Shown in pieces: positions 25,813-36,190 of a stretch of 64,000 nucleotides of DNA; position 1 is the stretch's first letter, and each line of letters begins with the position of its first letter. The notes beneath the pieces are model-generated. The model was given only the letters and a program-made list of their open reading frames with translations. It had not been told where the DNA came from and did not search any database. Location: contig NZ_CP050440.1 of NCBI RefSeq assembly GCF_011769525.1, forward strand, positions 6,945,501-7,009,500, given 5' to 3'. A program made the position numbers and the translations under genes. This stretch comes from Tolypothrix sp. PCC 7910. GTDB lineage: Bacteria > Cyanobacteriota > Cyanobacteriia > Cyanobacteriales > Nostocaceae.

Positions 25813-26471
25813 TTAAAGTATTACTAGTAGATGACCAAAATTTAATTCGTCAAGGATTAAGAGCCTTATTAGAGTTAGAAACAGATTTAGAAATTGTAGG
25901 CGAAGCAGAAAATGGAGCAATCGCACTGAACTTAATTGCCGAATTGCAACCAAATGTAGTATTAATGGATATCAGAATGCCCATCATGGATGGAGTTGCA
26001 GCTACAAGAGAAATTCAACAGCGATTTAGCGGTATTAAAGTTTTAGTATTAACAACTTTTGATGATGATGAATATGTAAAAGCTGCACTCCAGAATGGTG
26101 CAATGGGTTATTTACTCAAGGATACACCTTCGGAAGAATTAGCGTTTGCAATCCGTGCTGTTCATAAAGGTTACACTCAATTAGGGCCAGGAATAGTCAA
26201 AAAATTATTGATGCAGTTTCCAACTTTAGAACCAACCCCACCGCCAGAAATTCCGCCTAGTTTAGCAGAACTGACTCCCAGAGAGAAAGAGGTTTTACGC
26301 CTCATTGCTCAAGGCGCTAGTAATCGAGAAATAGCTCAACAACTCTATATTTCTGAGGGGACAGTCAAAAACCATGTGACCAATATGTTAAATCGTCTCA
26401 ATTTACGCGATCGCACTCAAGCTGCAATTTTTGCTAATACATTTTTAGCATATTTAAATGACAGCGATTAA
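25809..26471 (+). CDS. NarL/FixJ-type response regulator
   Basis: The receiver domain begins [17 protein letters not shown] with phospho-acceptor Asp in VLMDIRMP (~54) and Lys in LLKDT. The C-terminal LuxR-type HTH reads [20 protein letters not shown], then [11 protein letters not shown]. It forms an operon with the kinase at 24580 and is its obvious partner. Confidence 0.93.
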
Positions 26472-26531
26472 TTATCAATTAAAATTATTACTAATAAACT
26501 AAACTTTATTTATTTTATTCAATATCTAGAT

Positions 26532-26882
26532 ATGGAAAAAACAGTAACTTTATATCGTCCTACTGGCCCCAAAGAATTAGAACTAGTTAAACAAAGCGGC
26601 TATACTAAATGGCCTCCCAGACTACCCGAACAGCCAATTTTTTATCCAGTGACAAACGAGCAATATGCTCAGGAAATTGCAACTAAATGGAATGTTAGAG
26701 ACAGCGGAGTGGGTTATGTAACACGCTTTGAAGTTAAAAAAGCATTTATGGATAAATATGAAATTCACCAGGTAGGCGCTTCATATCATACAGAATGGTG
26801 GATTCCTGCGGAGGAGTTGGAAGAGTTGAACAACAACATTGTGGGTAAAATTGAAGTTATTGGAGAATTCCGTAATTCATAA
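26532..26882 (+). CDS. Conserved protein, sometimes annotated ADP-ribosylation/crystallin J1-like
   Basis: The 116-residue protein begins MEKTVTLYRPTGPKELELVK and contains PIFYPVTNEQYAQEIA and YHTEWWIPAEELEELN. I recognise it as a conserved cyanobacterial family, but no catalytic residues can be named. It lies 60 bp after the response regulator, in the same direction, and faces the deaminase gene. Confidence 0.7.
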   Translation: MEKTVTLYRPTGPKELELVKQSGYTKWPPRLPEQPIFYPVTNEQYAQEIATKWNVRDSGVGYVTRFEVKKAFMDKYEIHQVGASYHTEWWIPAEELEELNNNIVGKIEVIGEFRNS

Positions 26883-26899
26883 TTTAGATAAAATGGGTA

Positions 26900-26939
26900 G
26901 CTTGGCGTTTAATTAAATAATGCCAAGCATTCTGTTTTT
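26900..26939 (+). terminator. Terminator between convergent genes
   Basis: GCTTGGC (26900-26906) pairs with GCCAAGC (26922-26928), followed by TTTTT at 26935. It overlaps the last codons of the convergent deaminase gene. Confidence 0.5.
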
Positions 26940-27334
26940 AAAACCCCTTTAATCACATTGATATTTCTAAATGATTTAACAATCACCTCTTCACAAGAAA
27001 TCTCAATTTGTGATTGATTGATGGAAATTAAATCTTGAATCGAAGCGCCATAGATAATTTCGGAGATACCCGTCCAAACACAAGCCGTTGCACACATAGG
27101 ACAAGGTTCACCAGTTGTATATATGCTATACCCTGACAAAGCAGGATTTTGAATTTTAGCTGTTAAACTACGAATAACATTGATTTCTGCATGAGCAGAT
27201 GGATCGTTATCTCGTCTTACAGTATTATGACCTACGGCAACAACTTCGTTATCTTTCACAATCACTGCGCCATAAGGTGCATCACCTTTTTTTGCTTCTG
27301 CGATCGCTAGACGCATAAAATATTCATGATCCAT
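26909..27334 (-). CDS. Nucleoside/guanine-type deaminase
   Basis: A CMP/dCMP-like zinc deaminase: the zinc site is His-Ala-Glu in SAHAEINVI and Cys pair in EPCPMCATACVWTG. The 141-residue length and PYGAVIVKDNEVVAVGHN region resemble guanine deaminase or the generic nucleoside deaminase group more than tRNA adenosine deaminase. It would help recycle purine or pyrimidine bases. Confidence 0.85.
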   Translation of the reverse strand: MDHEYFMRLAIAEAKKGDAPYGAVIVKDNEVVAVGHNTVRRDNDPSAHAEINVIRSLTAKIQNPALSGYSIYTTGEPCPMCATACVWTGISEIIYGASIQDLISINQSQIEISCEEVIVKSFRNINVIKGVLKTECLALFN

Positions 27335-27425
27335 ATTCCTGAAGGAGTTGAAAAATATACTTGTTAAGAATATCGCATTTTAAATGTTGTTTCTACGAAA
27401 TACTGAAAAATAGTTAGGGTTAAAT

Positions 27426-28217
27426 ATGTTACTTAGCAGAGAAAAAGCCGAATTCTATTTAACAGACATAGAAACACCACTAGGACAAATAATTAACTTA
27501 ACTATTGCTGGATTGGTTCTTTTGTCCTCAGGAATTTTCGTAGCAGAAACTTATAATATTCCTGATTCTCTCCGTTTTCAATTACAAATTATTGATACTG
27601 TTATATTCATAGTTTTTGCAGTTGAATATGTAATCCGTCTATGGAGCGCAGAAAATAAGCTTAAGTATTTTTTCAGCTTATATTCCATTATCGACTTAAT
27701 TGCTATCTTGCCATTTTTTCTAGGAGCCGTAGATTTAAGTTTTATTCGTTTATTACGATGGTTTCGGATTTTAAGATTAATCAGGTTTATCGATAAAAGA
27801 TTTTTCTTTGGTAGTGTGAGTACTGAAGATGGTGTAATATTTGCAAGAATATTATTTACCTTATTTGCGATTATATTTGTTTACTCTGGCTTAATTTATC
27901 AAGTTGAACATCCTGTTAATCCCCAAGGTTTTGCCACTTTTTTAGATGCATTGTATTTTTCGATTGTCACCATGACAACGGTGGGTTTTGGAGATGTAAC
28001 ACCCGCTTCTGAATTAGGACGCTGGTTAACAGTATTGATGATTTTGACAGGTATTGCTCTAATTCCTTGGCAAGTTGGTGATTTAATCAAGCGATTGGTA
28101 AAAACTGCGAACCAAATAGAAGCGAATTGTTCTGGATGCGGTTTGGCTTACCACGATGCTGATGCTGGGTTTTGCAAAAGATGCGGAACCAAATTACCTG
28201 TGATAAGTGCTGATTAA
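27426..28217 (+). CDS. Voltage-gated K+ channel with a C-terminal zinc ribbon
   Basis: Six membrane helices are visible. S4 carries regularly spaced arginines (FIRLLRWFRILRLIRFIDKR), and the pore loop contains TMTTVGFGDVTP, a K+ selectivity filter of the TVGFGD form. The C-terminus has a rubredoxin-like zinc ribbon, CSGCGLAYHDADAGFCKRCG. It probably conducts K+ across the cytoplasmic membrane; the zinc ribbon may sense metal or redox state or aid assembly. Confidence 0.9.
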   Translation: MLLSREKAEFYLTDIETPLGQIINLTIAGLVLLSSGIFVAETYNIPDSLRFQLQIIDTVIFIVFAVEYVIRLWSAENKLKYFFSLYSIIDLIAILPFFLGAVDLSFIRLLRWFRILRLIRFIDKRFFFGSVSTEDGVIFARILFTLFAIIFVYSGLIYQVEHPVNPQGFATFLDALYFSIVTMTTVGFGDVTPASELGRWLTVLMILTGIALIPWQVGDLIKRLVKTANQIEANCSGCGLAYHDADAGFCKRCGTKLPVISAD

Positions 28218-28257
28218 TTTGTGTTTGGGAATTCGGGTTTTTAATGAATGAAGAATT

Positions 28258-28339
28258 GCAGAGACGCGATTAATCGCGTATGTACAAAAGTCAAAGTAGC
28301 TGCCGTAGGGTGCGTTATGGCGGAAAAATTTACGCACCG
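28258..28339. repeat. Two dispersed repeats: GACGCGATTAATCGCGT and GTAGGGTGCGTTA types
   Basis: 28258-28290 contains the palindromic GACGCGATTAATCGCGT core, also present at 63511-63540 and in part at 22937-22959. 28305-28339 begins GTAGGGTGCGTTA, a family also seen at 42873-42957 and 45369-45394. An AT-rich palindrome TTGATATTAATATCAA follows. Confidence 0.65.
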
Positions 28340-28498
28340 TTGATATTAATATCAACGTTTTCCGTAAATACGATAACTAGTGTTGTTTATATTATAGAGC
28401 GAATATATATATTTCGCTTCTGTTTTATAAATTCATGAGTATTCAAAATTATGAATACTCATACAGACTAGTGGTGTGACAATCTGGAGTAAAACCTT

Positions 28499-29434
28499 AT
28501 GGAAGCCTTGCTACATAACCCAATTGCAGATATGTACGGGCCTAACTTCTTACTGTTGTATGGTATTGTCATTAGCTTGACACTTTTAGGTTGCTGGAAA
28601 CTTGTACAAGATCCAACAACAAATCAACCCTTACCTTTAATCCCTAGCGAACCAGATCCTTATGAAGTTGCTTACTTCCGTGAAGGAGCTTTAGAAGTAG
28701 TAAAAGTAGCACTTTTGAGTTTAATTCAAAATAATTATTTACAGATTACTGGACAGCAAATTAGCCAAACATCAGCTCATGGAGATGTATTTCAACTACA
28801 TCCTATAGAGAGGGACGTGTTTTTTAGTTATTCAACAACTCCAGAAGTAAAATCTCTCTGGTTAATAGCCTCCAAAGTACAATCACATTGCGATACTTTT
28901 GAAGAAAAACTACGCAATGAGAAACTATTATATGCTCAAGAATGGCAAAGATGGAATTATAAAGTTGGCTTTATTGCGGCCACAATTATTTGCAGTTTAG
29001 GTGGTTATAAGCTCCTGATTGCCTTAGAAAATAACTATCATAATGTCAACCTGCTCATATATATGGCTGTCATATCGATAATGTATATTTTATGGTTGAG
29101 CCGGATGCGATCGCGCCTTAGCTATCGAGGACAAACTTACCTTCAACAACTCCAAAATACATTTGCTCAATTGAAGACTAAGGCGAAGAATTATAGCTTC
29201 CTTTCAGTATTTAATTACAACTTGCTAGTAGCACTCTTTGGCGTAGAAGCACTCGCTGGTACTGAATACGATTCATACTACAAAGTGTTCTATCCTGCTA
29301 CATCTAGAACAAGTAGCCAAAGAAGTAATTCCTCTGATAGTGGTTGCAGTAGTGGAAGTTCCTGCAGTGGTGGAAGTTCCTGCGGTGGCGGTTGCGGCGG
29401 TGGCTGCGGTGGCTGCGGCGGGGGTGGCGACTAA
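28499..29434 (+). CDS. TIGR04222-type membrane protein with Cys/Gly tail
   Basis: Membrane helices lie near residues 17-35 and in a pair near 160-200, with a soluble part between them. The C-terminus ends in a low-complexity tail with six cysteines in glycine: GCSSGSSCSGGSSCGGGC, then GGGCGGCGGGGD. This layout is that of the TIGR04222 group. One base after its stop begins a DUF692/MNIO gene, whose enzymes modify cysteines in peptides. I infer that the tail is the substrate, displayed on a membrane-anchored carrier. No direct evidence of modification is available from sequence. Confidence 0.85.
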   Translation: MEALLHNPIADMYGPNFLLLYGIVISLTLLGCWKLVQDPTTNQPLPLIPSEPDPYEVAYFREGALEVVKVALLSLIQNNYLQITGQQISQTSAHGDVFQLHPIERDVFFSYSTTPEVKSLWLIASKVQSHCDTFEEKLRNEKLLYAQEWQRWNYKVGFIAATIICSLGGYKLLIALENNYHNVNLLIYMAVISIMYILWLSRMRSRLSYRGQTYLQQLQNTFAQLKTKAKNYSFLSVFNYNLLVALFGVEALAGTEYDSYYKVFYPATSRTSSQRSNSSDSGCSSGSSCSGGSSCGGGCGGGCGGCGGGGD

Positions 29435-29435
29435 G

Positions 29436-30269
29436 ATGTTATCTCATCTCCCTAATTTAGGTGTGGGATTAGGTTTTAGAGAATTATTTAAAAGCGAGTT
29501 GTTTCTCAATCGCCAGCCAGTAGACTTTCTGGAAATTGTTGCTGAACATTATTTAGATGCACCAGCAGCAAAACAGCAGGAATTAGAATTGCTGGCGGCG
29601 CATTTCCCCCTAATTCCCCATGCAATTAATCTGTCTTTAGGTAGCGCTGAAGGTTTAGATAGAGATTATTTAGCTAAACTAGCAGCACTAATTAAGCAGC
29701 TTAACCCGCCTTGGTGGAGTGAGCATCTTTGTTTTACCAAAGTAGGGGGAATTGATATTGGACATTTATCACCGCTACCCTATACGCAGGAAGCTGTCGA
29801 AGTAGTTTGTCGCAACATCGCTGAAGTGCGTCGCTGGATTGATGTGCCATTAATACTCGAAAATATTACTTATATGGTGGCACTTCCTGGTGCGGAGATG
29901 ACAGAAGCCCAATTTTTAGCGGAAGTAGCAGAACATGCTGATTGTGGGTTGCTTTTAGATGTGACAAATCTCTACACTAATGCTGTCAACCACGGCTATG
30001 ATATGCAGCAGTTTCTCCAACAATTACCGCTAGAACGTATTGTACAGTTGCATTTCGTTGGCGGACATTGGCATGATGGTGTTTTGATTGATAGCCATTC
30101 CCACTCGACACCAGTAGAAATCTGGCAATTGATGGATGATGTTGTCGCCAACTTTCCAGTCAAAGGAATAGTTCTCGAACGAGATGAAAACTTACCAGCC
30201 TTTACAGAATTAGTAGCAGAACTGCAACAAGCACGACATATCGCCAGGAGTCATGGTAAATGGGGTTAG
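29436..30269 (+). CDS. DUF692 / MNIO multinuclear iron oxygenase
   Basis: The 277-residue TIM-barrel enzyme starts at ATG 29436 (MLSHLPNLGVGLGFRELF), one base after the upstream stop; an in-frame GTG inside the tail gene is a shadow start. Family features visible: IPHAINLSLGS, WWSEHLCF, LENITYMV, LLDVTNLYTNAVNHG, LHFVGGHW and DSHSH, the His/Asp/Glu ligands of the iron cluster, and LERDENLP. MNIOs convert peptide cysteines to products such as oxazolone/thioamide or thiazole groups. The neighbouring Cys-rich tail is the likely target and the following gene the likely partner. Confidence 0.9.
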   Translation: MLSHLPNLGVGLGFRELFKSELFLNRQPVDFLEIVAEHYLDAPAAKQQELELLAAHFPLIPHAINLSLGSAEGLDRDYLAKLAALIKQLNPPWWSEHLCFTKVGGIDIGHLSPLPYTQEAVEVVCRNIAEVRRWIDVPLILENITYMVALPGAEMTEAQFLAEVAEHADCGLLLDVTNLYTNAVNHGYDMQQFLQQLPLERIVQLHFVGGHWHDGVLIDSHSHSTPVEIWQLMDDVVANFPVKGIVLERDENLPAFTELVAELQQARHIARSHGKWG

Positions 30270-30841
30270 CACAAACGCAGCAGGTTTTAGCCAAACTGTA
30301 TACTAATACTGAATTCAGGAACGGTTTCTTTGCTAACCCAAAAGTCCTTGGTGCAGAATTGGGATTAAGCGATGCTGAAATAGAGAATTTATCTCAACTT
30401 GCTGCGCCACAAGTCAACCTGTTTGCCAGTTCTCTTAAGTGGAAGCGATTAAATTTATTGTCAAAAGTACTACCTAGTACTGCGGTCGCCCTCGGTAAAA
30501 ACTTCAAAACTTTATTTTGGCGGTATGCAGAAACTTATATACCCCAGGGTATCAAGAAACATCGACAAGATGCGATCGCCTTTGCTGACTTTATCGTCAA
30601 AACCTCACAGCTAGAAGGATTAGAACCAATTTGGCTGAGTGATTTAGTACGCTACGAACAAGCCTGGCTATTAGCCGAGGAACTAAATCGCGGCTTGAAA
30701 GTATGTTGGTTTCGTTATCCCATTGACAAACTAGGGAATAGTGAAGAGAAAATTCGTCCGCAACTCACAATCGCTGTATGGTGGCGTTTCCAGGCGCGAT
30801 CGCCTCTACATCATATTGTGCAATCACTATTTATAAAGTAA
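30260..30841 (+). CDS. Likely partner protein of the MNIO enzyme
   Basis: This 193-residue protein overlaps the MNIO gene by 10 bp. Its N-terminal part, LAQTQQVLAKLYTNTEFR, FFANPKVLGAELGLSDAEIE, looks like the helical segment seen in proteins encoded beside MNIO genes (compare DUF2063- or SCO6045-type partners). The rest has W-rich segments (KVCWFRYPIDKL, AVWWRFQA). I infer a substrate-recognition role like MbnC, but the exact family was not identified with certainty. Confidence 0.65.
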   Translation: MGLAQTQQVLAKLYTNTEFRNGFFANPKVLGAELGLSDAEIENLSQLAAPQVNLFASSLKWKRLNLLSKVLPSTAVALGKNFKTLFWRYAETYIPQGIKKHRQDAIAFADFIVKTSQLEGLEPIWLSDLVRYEQAWLLAEELNRGLKVCWFRYPIDKLGNSEEKIRPQLTIAVWWRFQARSPLHHIVQSLFIK

Positions 30842-31417
30842 AAATACTGGAATTGGACATTTACTTTAATAAGTAGATTTTAAAGTCTTTATCAAAAATC
30901 AGTAAAACTTCTCTGATTTACACTGATTTTATCAGCCGAAATATTTCGACTGCTAATTTTTTAGCATTACTTTTACGCCGAAATATCATCTATCTAAAGC
31001 AGTAATTATTCTGATGCTTTCCATTGATGATTGGTTTTTAATCTAAAGAGAATTGGTTAATTTATCACCGGATTTCCGAAAAACTTTGTTAGTTTAAGGA
31101 GCAAACAAGAGTCTGAGAATTTGCTAAACCATCCATTCTTTAAAATCTACGCGCATCGTTGATTTACTAAATATGGTTACAAGTAAAAGATTGTGTTTGT
31201 TAGCTATTTGGTATTTATGGCGGCAAAACTAGAGATAAAAAATAATTAATCGTTAGGCTTCATTCCCTGTAAATAGCAGGAATCATGAAATTTATCATTT
31301 GGGTTACGTCATAAAAGAACCCAACTAAAAATACAGGAACAAGGTGCAACTGCTGCAATAAATATTGTTAGCAATCAAATTTTATTTTTTTAAACCGCTG
31401 CTCATGAGGATAAAATA
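30842..31417. other. Intergenic region before the RTX gene
   Basis: 576 bp, AT-rich, with no reading frame or repeat that I could support. It separates the MNIO operon from the large RTX-glucanase gene. Confidence 0.4.
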
Positions 31418-34400
31418 ATGGTGAAGAAAACAGTTTTTTTAACAAGCAATGCTGATGTTTGGGGAGGCTGGGAAAACGGTATTGAATATGAGGTTTCCGC
31501 CTTCGAGGGTAACGATAAACTGTATGGCTATATTGGCAATGACACTCTAGATGGTGGCGATGGCGACGACCAAATCTATGGCGGTGCTGGAGATGATATT
31601 TTATCTGGTGGATCAGGCAACGATTTATTAGATGGTGGCGATGGCAATGACATTTTAGATGGTGGATTAGGCGACGATACACTGATTGGTGGAAACGGGG
31701 ATGATATCGTTTTTGGTGGTGACGGCTATGACCAGATTAGCGGTGGTGCTGGGAATGATATCCTCAACGGAGACAACGGTAATGATGTAATTAACGGTGG
31801 TGCAGGATACGACATCATTACTGGCGGTATCGGCAATGACGTGATTGATGGTGGCGATGGCAATGATGTAATTACTGCTGGTGATGGCGATGATGGTTGG
31901 TTATTCGGTGGTTTAGGGAATGACAGCATTGATGGTGGTACAGGAAATGACACCATAGATGGTGGTGAAGGTGATGATAGCCTCACCGGCGCTGATGGTA
32001 TTGACCTACTCATGGGTAATAATGGCAATGATTCCATCTCTGGTGGTTTAGGAAATGACAACATTGATGGTGGCGCTGGTAATGATTCCATCTCTGGTGG
32101 TGATGGCGACGATAGAATTAATGGCGGCGCTGACAATGACACCATCTGGGGTGATATAGGCAATGATTACATTATTGGGGGTCTAGGCTTTGACACCATT
32201 GCTGGTGGTATGGGTAATGACACCATAGATGGTGGTGATGGTAATGATGTCATTGCTGGTGGCGATGGTGATGACAGCTGGTTATTTGGTGGTTTAGGGA
32301 ATGACAGCATTGATGGTGGTACAGGGTATGACACCCTAGATGGTGGCGATGGTGATGACACCTTGAAAGGCGGTGATGGTATTGATGTCCTCACAGGTAA
32401 TAATGGCAATGATGTCATCTGTGCTGGAGAAGGCGACGATAAAGTCTATGGCGGTGCAGATAATGACATCATCTGGGGTGATGCTGGCAATGATTACCTC
32501 AGTGGTGGTTTAGGCTTTGATACTATTTATGGCGGTATCGGCAATGACGTGATTGATGGTGGCGATGGCAATGATGTGATTGCTGCTGGTGATGGCGATG
32601 ATGGTTGGTTATTCGGTGGTTTAGGGAATGACAACATTGATGGTGGTACAGGTAATGACACCCTAGATGGCGGTGAAGGCGATGATACCCTGACAGGTGG
32701 TGATGGTATTGATTTGATCAGCGGTAATAATGGCAATGATTCCATCTCCGGTGGTTTAGGGAATGACAACATTGATGGTGGCGCTGGTAATGATTCCCTT
32801 GCAGGTGGCGACGGCGACGATAAAATCAATGGTGGTGCAGATAATGATATTGTTTGGGGTGATGCTGGCAATGATTACCTCAGCGGTGGTTTAGGCTTTG
32901 ATACTATTTATGGCGGTATCGGCAATGATGTGATTGATGGTGGCGATGGCAATGATGTGATTGCTGGTGGCGATGGTGATGACAACTGGTTATTTGGTGG
33001 TTTAGGGAATGACAACATTGATGGCGGTTTAGGCGCAGATACTTTAGATGGTGGTGATGGCGATGATACCCTCACAGGTGGTGACGGTATTGATGTCCTC
33101 ACAGGTAATAATGGTAATGATTCCATCTCTGGTGGCGAAGGCGACGATAAAATTTATGGCGGCGCAGATAATGACACCATCTGGGGTGATGCTGGCAATG
33201 ATTATATTAGCGGCGGCATCGGTAATGACACTATGGGTGGTGGCATCGGTAATGACGTAATTGATGGTGGTGATGGGAATGATGTCATTGCTGGTGGCGA
33301 TGGTGATGATAGCTGGTTGTTCGGTGGATTAGGCGCAGATAACCTCGATGGGGGATTAGGCGCAGATACCCTCGATGGCGGTGAAGGCGATGATACCCTA
33401 ACAGGCGGAGATGGTAACGATCTGCTAATGGGTAATAATGGCAACGATCTCCTTTCTGGTGGTGCTGGCAATGATGTCATCTATGGTGGTGATGGTAATG
33501 ACACTATTTGGTCTGATGCTGGCAATGATGTGATTAGTGCTGGTGCTGGAAGCGACACCATTGGCGGCGGCTTGGGAAGTGACAACATTGATGGTGGCGA
33601 TGGCAATGATGTCATCTATGGTGGAGAGAACGATGATGTTTGGTTATTTGGTGGATTGGGTGCAGACAAAATCGATGGTGGATTAGGTGCAGACACTCTA
33701 GATGGTGGTGATGGTGATGATACCCTCACAGGTGGTGACGATAGTGATGTTCTTAGGGGTAGCAACGGCAATGATGCCCTTTATGGTGAAGCTGGCAACG
33801 ATAACATCGATGGCGGTGCTGGTAATGACTCCATTGGTGGTGGAGATGGCGATGACAAAATCAATGGTGGTGGTGACAATGACACCATCTGGGGCGATGC
33901 TGGCAATGATGTAATTAGTGGTGGTTTAGGAATTGACAACATTTCTGGTGGTGCTGGTAGTGACACCATAAATGGCGGAGACGGCGATGATAAAATCAAT
34001 GGCGGCACAGAAGATGACACTATCTGGGGCGATGCTGGTAATGATTACCTGAATGGCGGTACTGGTAATGACATTCTTGGCGGTGGTGCTGGTAATGACA
34101 TCATCGATGGTGGTGATGGCAATGATGTAATTAACGGCGGCGAGGGTGATGATAGTTGGTTATTCGGTGGTTTAGGTAATGACAAGATAGAAGGCGACTT
34201 GGGGAATGACACCATTGAGGGTGGTGAAGGTGATGATACCCTTCTCGGTGGTGATGGTAATGATATCCTCACTGGTGGCAATGGTAATGATTCCCTCATC
34301 GGTGGTGCTGGAATTAACGTCCTTGATGGCGGTGAAGGTGATGATACCATCATCGGTGGTGACAGTACCGATGTCATCAAAGGTGGGAATGGTAATGACA

Positions 34401-36190
34401 TCATTGATAGTGGCGCTGGTAATGACATCATTAATGGTGGTGCTGGTAATGATTACCTCAAGGGTAGTAATGGTAGTGATACCCTTGATGGATCTGGATC
34501 AGCTATCTTGAGCATTAACTCAGTAGATACTCTAGTAGGTGGGTTAAATGCTGATATCTTTATCTTGGGTGACAACTTCAAGAGTTACTACGATGATGAA
34601 GACGCTACCACTAATGGCGTAAAAGATTACGCTATCATCGACGATTTTAATCGTTTTGAAGATATAATTCGCCTGCATGGTTCACTCGGTGAATATGTTG
34701 TTGGTGGCATTTCTGATCAATTGACAACTGTATTTAATACTAGTAATGCATCGGGTATTTATGTAGATACCGACAAAAACGGCAGATGGAATGATACAGA
34801 CGAATTAGTTGCAGTGGTGAAGAATTTAACTCCTGGTAAATTAGTGCTGAGTGGAGATTATTTTCAATACACCGACACACCAAATGCAACTGCTTGGCAT
34901 CCCAGTAAAGATGCTGGCTGGGAACTAGTATTTAGCGATGAATTTAACGGTACCAGCCTATCTTTAGATAAGTGGAATACACGTTATACTCTGCAAAATT
35001 TATATGGAGGTAGAAACAATCCCTGGAATCAGGAATTGCAATACTACGTTGGTGATAATGAAGTCATTAATGGCACAGTTTATGACGGTTTTGAATTTAA
35101 GAATGGCACCGTCAGTATTGTTGGGAAAAAAGTTGACACCCCCATTTCATCTGCAATTGGTGAATTTGCCCTTGGTTTTGATGAGGTAAAAACATTCAAT
35201 TACACCTCAGGAATGCTCAACACTGAAAATAAAGAAGCATTCACCTATGGCTATATGGAAATTCGCGCTAAAGCACCTAGTGGACAAGGACTTTGGCCCG
35301 CCTTCTGGATGTTACCTTCTTCAGGAAAATGGCCCCCAGAAATTGATGTGATGGAGACAGTGGGACAAAAAACAGACACTGTAATTAACTCATTCCATTC
35401 TTTGGGTACTGACGGTTTAAATAACGATACCGCATATCAAAATTTCACTGGAGTTGATTTCTCTCAAGATTTCCATACCTATGGAGTGAAATGGGAAACC
35501 GATAAATTAACTTGGTACATCGATCAACACGCAGTATTTGAAACTAAAAATAATATTCCTGATGTACCAATGTACTTGTTAGCTAATCTGGCAATTGGTG
35601 GTAAATTCCCTGGTTCTCCAGATGCAAGTACTCCCGCAATCAACAATTTTGATATCGATTACGTTCGTGTTTACCAAGATGCATCGGGTAGCCTTTACGG
35701 TGGCTCTAACGATGATGTATTGGAAAAACAATTGGGCAGCATTTTTGGGTTATCAGGGAATGATGTGATTAAAGGTGGAATTGGCAATAACACCCTAGAT
35801 GGTGGCGATGGCAATGATATCTTAATTGGCGTAAATACTACAGTTGCTCAACCTGGTGCTGGTGAAGTAGATACCTTAATAGGCGGTACAGGCCAAGATA
35901 AATTCGTCTTAGGCGATAGTACCAAGTTCTATTATGACGATCGCAGTAATTTGATAACTGGTTTAGGCGGCTATGCTGTGATTAAAGATTTCAATTCTGC
36001 CCAAGATGTCATCCAGTTAAATGGTAAAGCCAGTGATTATGTACTTGGCGCAGTATCTTCCCTCAATGGTACGGGAATTTATCGGGATATTAACGGCGAT
36101 CGCACTCTCGGTTCCACAGATGAGTTAATTGCAGTCGTCCAAGGCGATACAGGATTGAACTTGACGCAGAATTCCTTCCTATACGTTTAG
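31418..36190 (+). CDS. Giant RTX protein with embedded GH16 glucanase
   Basis: Residues ~30-1020 are RTX nonapeptides (GGxGxDxUx), which bind calcium and signal type I secretion; no N-terminal signal peptide is present. A module at ~1030-1155 ([16 protein letters not shown]... [16 protein letters not shown]) follows. GH16 lies at ~1168-1422: [12 protein letters not shown], catalytic EIDVMET at 1308-1314 (Glu1308, Asp1310, Glu1313), and the family fold ending YVRVYQD. A few more RTX units and a second copy of the module ([16 protein letters not shown]... [16 protein letters not shown]) close the protein. GH16 enzymes cut beta-1,3/1,4-glucans or related polymers; extracellular matrix remodelling is likely. 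Confidence 0.92.

Follow-up and report, generated by a model that had tools for sequence, protein, structure and literature searches.

A candidate three-gene module for modification of the cysteine-rich tail of a TIGR04222 membrane protein in Tolypothrix sp. PCC 7910

The 64,000-nucleotide stretch of Tolypothrix sp. PCC 7910 analysed here (contig NZ_CP050440.1, positions 6,945,501 to 7,009,500; hereafter the window) carries three consecutive plus-strand genes that encode a TIGR04222 membrane protein with a cysteine tail, an MNIO (DUF692 / MbnB_TglH_ChrH), which belongs to a family of iron enzymes known for Cys oxidation, and a third protein that is likely the partner of the MNIO. The best explanation, to which we give somewhat better than even confidence, is that the three genes form a modification module acting on the TIGR04222 tail. 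The idea that such tails are MNIO substrates was already published in 2025 (PMC12452194); the present analysis adds the predicted fold of the partner, the nine iron ligands of the enzyme, the tight coupling of one TIGR04222 subtype to the other two genes, and a usual chromosomal site with remnants of the module. The TIGR04222 gene (28499..29434, 311 aa) encodes the putative substrate carrier, and is followed by the MNIO gene (29436..30269, 277 aa), whose ATG at 29436 lies one base past the stop codon at 29432-29434, and by the third gene (30260..30841, 193 aa), whose start overlaps the MNIO end by 10 bp. Open reading frames (ORFs) and profile matches thus confirmed the arrangement given in the preliminary description, namely a TIGR04222-like protein with a six-Cys tail, a DUF692 gene that follows after one base, and a third gene that overlaps it by 10 bp. 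The mechanical ORF list starts the MNIO at GTG 29340; we adopted ATG 29436 instead because 277 aa is the commonest first-start length among relatives.

The 311-aa protein matched the NCBIfam model TIGR04222 (near_uncomplex) with E 1.4e-21 and 77.2 bits against a cut-off of 43. It has hydrophobic segments near residues 14-36, 155-177 and 183-203, a helix-helix-hairpin stretch at 54-90 in its middle domain, a C-terminal domain and finally the Cys/Gly/Ser tail. The last 31 residues include six Cys amid Gly and Ser, for which the binomial probability of at least six is 8e-7 at 1.06% Cys, the frequency in the rest of the protein type; the codons spanning all six Cys (residues 283-306), the putative modification sites, occupy 29345..29416 on the plus strand. 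Among the 61 mechanical ORFs of at least 100 aa in the window, only the TIGR04222 ORF has at least five Cys in its last 40 residues. Members of the subtype found in the module are membrane proteins of ~310-390 aa with 4 to 14 Cys per tail, and G305 and C306 were invariant in all 53 aligned proteins. The AlphaFold model of the window protein is moderate (mean pLDDT 72, tail under 50) and no fold is therefore claimed; the best match in a PDB fold search with it had an E of only 1.3. The sole Pfam match was a weak one to DUF2207_C (PF20990; E 2.3e-4) which, at 21.4 bits against a cut-off of 33, leaves the protein outside that family, and the bufferin domain DUF2282 was not matched. Most of the 13 sequence-profile matches to PDB chains lie on the Gly/Ser tail; these, and a weak match to a fulvocin-related model that includes the tail (16 bits, cut-off 35), were taken as composition.

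The MNIO matched PF05114 (MbnB_TglH_ChrH) with E 1e-91 and 307 bits against a cut-off of 25. The iron ligands reported for TglH are H71, H107, E151, D184, N187, H216, D229, H231 and E258 (PMC10880893), and all nine are kept in the alignment with the window enzyme, as H62, H97, E142, D175, N178, H206, D219, H221 and E248. The top NCBIfam models were BufB (7e-75) and HvfB (9e-66), both matched below their cut-offs; the score against the BufB maturase model NF050167 was 251.7 bits, short of its equivalog cut-off of 310. Enzymes of the BufB/HvfB kind are reported to yield copper-binding 5-thiooxazoles (PMC13097082; PMC13419390), and because they are the best-matching characterised relatives, a thiooxazole is the product predicted by analogy, at a confidence that falls a little short of even.

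No Pfam model matched the 193-aa third protein at E ≤ 0.1, and a DUF2063 signature was thus not seen; its gene has the position of a PME-type 2 partner gene, directly after the MNIO gene, and lacks that signature. Its AlphaFold model, built with 43 sequences, has a mean pLDDT of 87 and matched two PDB entries with E ≤ 0.001, both of them TglHI structures (8hi7_A and 8hci_A). The better match, 8hi7_A (E 1.1e-5, probability 1.00, TM 0.59 by query length, rmsd 6.0), was assigned to TglI because it has 269 residues, as against 304 for the TglH chain. These TglHI matches provide the structural relation to NGO1945 or TglI by which PME-type 2 proteins are also recognised; NGO1945 itself (3dee) was absent from the best 50 PDB matches, and chain C of MbnABC ranked 12th (E 0.82, probability 0.63). 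Furthermore, relatives of 264-274 aa with ~25% identity were found beside other MNIOs in five genomes. Judged from the predicted fold, the third gene is likely a PME-type 2 MNIO partner. The protein consists of a helical N-terminal part and a short C-terminal part of beta-strands, and its first 60 residues (window 30260-30440) resemble an NHLP (nitrile hydratase leader-like) domain. The Os1348 NHLP model NF038399 was matched at E ≤ 0.1 by 40 of the 43 members of the third-gene alignment (best 5.6e-9), the window protein reaching 26 bits, under the cut-off of 40; at E ≤ 1, nitrile hydratase alpha was matched by 13 members (best 0.014) and DUF2063 by four (best 0.031). MNIO partner proteins and NHLP leader peptides may thus be linked in origin. 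Elsewhere in the window's genome, an Os1348-family NHLP protein is encoded on a separate contig (G000 contig 7, 855-1034, L219; 52 bits against the cut-off of 40).

The distribution of the three genes was surveyed in 386 cyanobacterial genomes and in 217 genomes of the window's family. Among the 386 genomes, TIGR04222 was matched in 22 and MNIO in 28, and by their listed places the two lie side by side in nine, all in the window's family. Among the 217 family genomes, the third gene was matched in 48, MNIO in 48 and TIGR04222 in 63. A full or near-full-length third gene is present in 38 family genomes, two of them with a stop near the match end; an intact MNIO gene adjoins it in 37. All 38 genomes also have a TIGR04222 gene of the same subtype, which in 37 of them lies at that locus. 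In the remaining genome, G553 (contig 4; L155 and L156), a tailed gene with an intact tail lies ~93 kb from the MNIO and partner genes on the same contig. The MNIO and third genes overlap in 32 of the 38 loci, by exactly 10 bp in 29 including the window, and are separated by 2-361 bp in the remaining six. The subtype is discrete, TIGR04222 proteins of the module scoring at least 157 bits against the window protein and those outside it at most 24 bits, and 53 of the 55 subtype proteins have at least four Cys in their last 70 residues, the exceptions being a second copy at L123 and a truncated gene in G462. In 13 loci, two or three TIGR04222 genes stand beside one MNIO, and in 12 of these two or three are tailed; such tandem tailed genes by a single MNIO would suit substrates. 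All three genes are present in Nostoc carneum NIES-2107 and Calothrix brevissima NIES-22, and the trio was also encountered by chance, in another search, in a genome outside the family (G563). Beside other MNIOs of the family (e.g. L169-L177), no TIGR04222 gene was found in the stretches read. One locus (L119) has 886 bp between the TIGR04222 and MNIO genes, with two small frames that by eye look like a ParD/ParE-type antitoxin-toxin pair.

An ion channel gene with an Ion_trans-type match (27426..28217, plus strand in the window) stands before the module at 19 of the 25 loci examined; a response regulator and a deaminase gene often come ahead of it. It was matched in 202 of the 217 family genomes whether or not the module is present; it therefore marks the site only, and was rejected as a part of the module. 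By a weak sub-cut-off match, the channel-like protein has a zinc-ribbon-like C-terminal end. In some genomes (e.g. G398, G340, G024, G042 and G553), the module is located elsewhere. Six genomes without an intact module retain a third-gene fragment downstream of the channel gene, at ~25-80 bp in five and ~630 bp in one, and no tblastn trace of the TIGR04222 and MNIO genes was found in their 3-6.5 kb stretches. At the truncated G462 locus, the MNIO has lost its first 180 residues and the TIGR04222 protein its tail, in what looks like a single deletion. From these sequence remnants, the module looks old at its usual site and repeatedly lost, enzyme and tail having apparently gone together in most cases seen.

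Considering these results, we propose the following scenario for the module. The TIGR04222 protein would insert in the membrane, bearing its flexible Cys/Gly/Ser tail; the partner would help the MNIO to recognise tail Cys on the membrane-inserted protein; and the MNIO would oxidise several of them, most likely to 5-thiooxazoles, giving a membrane-tethered array of ligands for a soft metal, probably copper. These steps differ in strength. That the tail is the substrate of the MNIO is, on the sequence evidence, probable; that the modified tail binds copper is an extension by analogy with characterised products and remains tentative, at clearly less than an even chance. The most specific version of the scenario, in which an integral-membrane array of thiooxazole-type ligands is not released but modified in place on a cytoplasmic tail, serving as a metal buffer on the side opposite to that of bufferins, with the MNIO-free cousins left unmodified, is unlikely to hold in all its parts.

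The side of the membrane on which the tail lies was considered from charge. In the 53 subtype proteins, the N-terminal 13 residues contain on average 0.09 Lys/Arg, the 7-residue loop between hydrophobic segments 2 and 3 contains 1.34, and the 15 residues past the third segment contain 3.0 Lys/Arg as against 0.2 Asp/Glu. The Lys/Arg-rich stretch past the third segment places, by the positive-inside rule, the C-terminal domain and tail in the cytoplasm, and the tail would thus face the cytoplasm with fair probability, which suggests a topology contrary to the periplasmic one inferred by Antoine et al. (PMC12452194). If the tail is cytoplasmic, the enzyme could reach it after membrane insertion. 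In the longer relatives examined (11 of 22), one extra hydrophobic segment follows an N-terminal domain with a mostly positive flank, fitting a cytoplasmic C-terminus with four spans. Alternatively, the tail may be modified and yet periplasmic, as in bufferins, a possibility that concerns the membrane side only and is compatible with the tail as substrate. It agrees with the published topology and with the hydrophobicity of residues 234-252 (19-residue mean 1.61), a possible further span through which the tail could face outside; the corresponding stretch exceeds the 1.4 threshold in seven of 11 longer relatives, 12 of the 53 subtype proteins have four or five segments instead of three at a threshold of 1.6, and the loop between segments 2 and 3 is also positive. 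However, the contrast between the Lys/Arg-rich stretch and the Lys/Arg-poor N-terminus, together with the AlphaFold model, in which residues 237-252 form no more than two short helices of 11 and 4 residues, argues against it, and we regard a periplasmic tail as fairly unlikely.

Several observations weigh against the tail being an MNIO substrate modified as proposed. The MNIO matched five maturase models, in each case below the curated cut-off, and its chemistry may therefore differ from that of the characterised enzymes. The second TIGR04222 copy at L123 has no tail even though it lies directly beside an intact MNIO, and in G507, a fragmented assembly that is 85% complete, a tailed gene stands beside an MNIO cut after 49 residues. 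Furthermore, we read 33 TIGR04222-like proteins without an adjacent MNIO, counting as tailed those whose last 60 residues include three or more Cys; ten partial sub-cut-off TIGR04222 places were left out, one of which shares an open frame with a protein that was read (G461). Twenty-two of the 33, from 22 genomes, are tailed and 11 are not, and 21 of these 22 genomes have no MNIO match anywhere (the exception is G360), or 20 of 21 if the sub-cut-off L023 (G118) is dropped. Two of the tailed MNIO-free cases come from contaminated assemblies (G053, 9%; G461, 38%). No neighbour family was common to more than three of nine MNIO-unlinked tailed loci. The closely similar tails of MNIO-free genomes imply that the tail has some MNIO-independent role. 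The preliminary description had held that frequent genomes with the tail gene and no MNIO gene would count against its proposal, and across the wider family this is the situation encountered. The presence of a tail thus does not imply its modification, and the enzyme accompanies only one TIGR04222 subtype, that of the module.

These tails raise the possibility that the tail acts unmodified, as a metal-binding, redox-active or self-associating element, and that the target of the MNIO and its partner lies elsewhere, for instance in another region of the TIGR04222 protein or in an unlinked peptide. Motifs and spacings were counted in 21 MNIO-unlinked tailed proteins, leaving out L022, which was counted as tailed (4 Cys) and has the terminal Cys/Gly pattern. 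The ending C-G(1-4)-C-G(1-4)-C-G occurs in 16 of these 21 proteins, as against 44 of 53 in the module, and this shared ending, plus L022, favours an unmodified tail, as does the lack of a common neighbour family at the nine loci. In contrast, Ser directly precedes 234 of 421 tail Cys in the module and 18 of 117 outside it; likewise, 168 of 369 Cys spacings in the module are 4-5 residues long, as against 9 of 96 outside. These biases may be marks of an enzyme target or reflect shared ancestry alone, which could suffice for the Ser bias; Ser-Ser-Cys is also present in some MNIO-free tails. An unmodified tail also leaves unexplained the association of the subtype with the MNIO, its multiplication beside the enzyme gene and its loss together with that gene. 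An unlinked peptide substrate is further opposed by a search for ORFs of 20-120 aa in the larger gaps and in the flanks of the module, up to 450 bp before the first TIGR04222 gene and 600 bp after the third gene. The 86 stretches, taken from the window and 36 loci (L139, L155 and L156 were excluded, a gene being missing there), contained no Cys-rich small ORF common to many loci. Only one module-strand cluster extended over more than ten loci (24), and it represents the end of the channel gene upstream. The clusters that span 10 and nine loci are short, have 0-3 Cys and by eye resemble out-of-frame shadows of the channel end or the TIGR04222 start, and the others were a minus-strand cluster in 15 loci and clusters in 4-8 related loci. 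A small separate precursor peptide was thus rejected, with the reservation that one may be limited to close relatives or encoded elsewhere in the genome. Taken together, we consider it improbable that the tail acts unmodified while the MNIO works on something else. As regards the MNIO-unlinked proteins themselves, 17 of the 22 tailed frames are 460-555 aa long and have an extra N-terminal domain. Three long MNIO-free proteins with an N-terminal domain (L211, L212 and L217) were scanned; L211 has by eye a D-x-I-W-H-L-H-like stretch, and one of the three (L217) weakly matched GRDP-like PF07173 (E 0.058, sub-cut-off).

A third possibility, that the third gene encodes the precursor of a ribosomally synthesised and post-translationally modified peptide with an NHLP-type leader, the TIGR04222 protein serving for transport or anchoring, draws on the Os1348 NHLP matches of most alignment members, but the third protein is conserved over most of its length without a Cys-rich core, has a predicted fold like that of the TglHI partner and has longer relatives beside other MNIOs, which makes this very improbable.

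We thus favour a three-gene module that modifies the TIGR04222 tail. Of the system outlined in the preliminary description, the linkage of the genes within the subtype, the complete set of TglH iron ligands and the partner-like fold stand in its favour, whereas the expectation that the tail implies an MNIO fails across the family. If the module acts as proposed, MNIO enzymes would make permanent parts of membrane proteins, beyond small released peptides, and modified and unmodified versions of one tail type could be compared. With the three-gene subtype in named strains and natural MNIO-free tails at hand, the question of which TIGR04222 tails are modified is directly testable.

In the gap that separates the module from the channel gene, a terminator-like stem (28338-28357) and promoter-like hexamers (28386-28413) lie on the plus strand (28338..28413), though the counts of promoter- and terminator-like elements near the module were not above those in shuffled sequence, and an Rfam search of 26000-33000 gave no match. 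Downstream of the module, window 31418-36190 encodes a 1,590-aa protein with Ca-binding-type repeats, a stretch of which matched beta-glucanase models, all below their cut-offs; a related ORF lies near the module in three of 25 loci, the window included.

The module is closest to the TIGR04222-MNIO clusters of Antoine et al. (PMC12452194). In that work, among more than 1,000 proteins that contain Cys, lack a signal peptide and are encoded before MNIO genes, 40% are TIGR04222 proteins, the Cys-tailed subsets are proposed as likely MNIO substrates, the tails are taken to be periplasmic, PME-type 2 partners occur in at least 10% of the TIGR04222 clusters, and one third of the genomes with a TIGR04222 gene have no MNIO gene. 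Among the matches listed in our literature search, which left most subscription journals outside, no experimental test of this proposal was found, nor, among the matches listed, a relevant paper joining MNIO, membrane protein and cyanobacteria. The clusters of Antoine et al. and the window module share a Cys/Gly/Ser-tailed membrane protein beside an MNIO, in some clusters with a PME-type 2 partner. Those clusters are mostly from Actinomycetota and their association is loose overall; in the main text of the article, words that begin in cyanobact, Nostoc or Cyanobacteriota do not occur. The window module, in contrast, belongs to a subtype from cyanobacteria in which the TIGR04222 gene is tightly coupled to the MNIO and partner genes, can occur as tandem tailed copies and mostly keeps to one chromosomal site, and in which the tail is predicted to be cytoplasmic. 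The bufferin, oxazolin and captophorin systems (BufABC, HvfABC and FonABC) likewise combine a Cys substrate, a partner and an MNIO of the best-matching characterised kind, and their reported product is a copper-binding 5-thiooxazole (PMC13097082; PMC13419390). Their precursors have Sec signal peptides and their partners are DUF2063 (PME-type 1) proteins (PMC12452194), whereas the window module has a membrane protein of ~310-390 aa and a partner without a Pfam match, and no DUF2063 (PF09836) match, the mark of the bufferin PME-type 1 partner, was found in the window's genome. The likeness to TglHI lies in the nine iron ligands of TglH, which align in the window MNIO, and in TglI as the best PDB match of the partner model; TglHI, however, acts on a Cys that has been attached to the C-terminal end of a scaffold peptide (PMC9016710), whereas the putative substrate here is a tail with several genetically encoded Cys.

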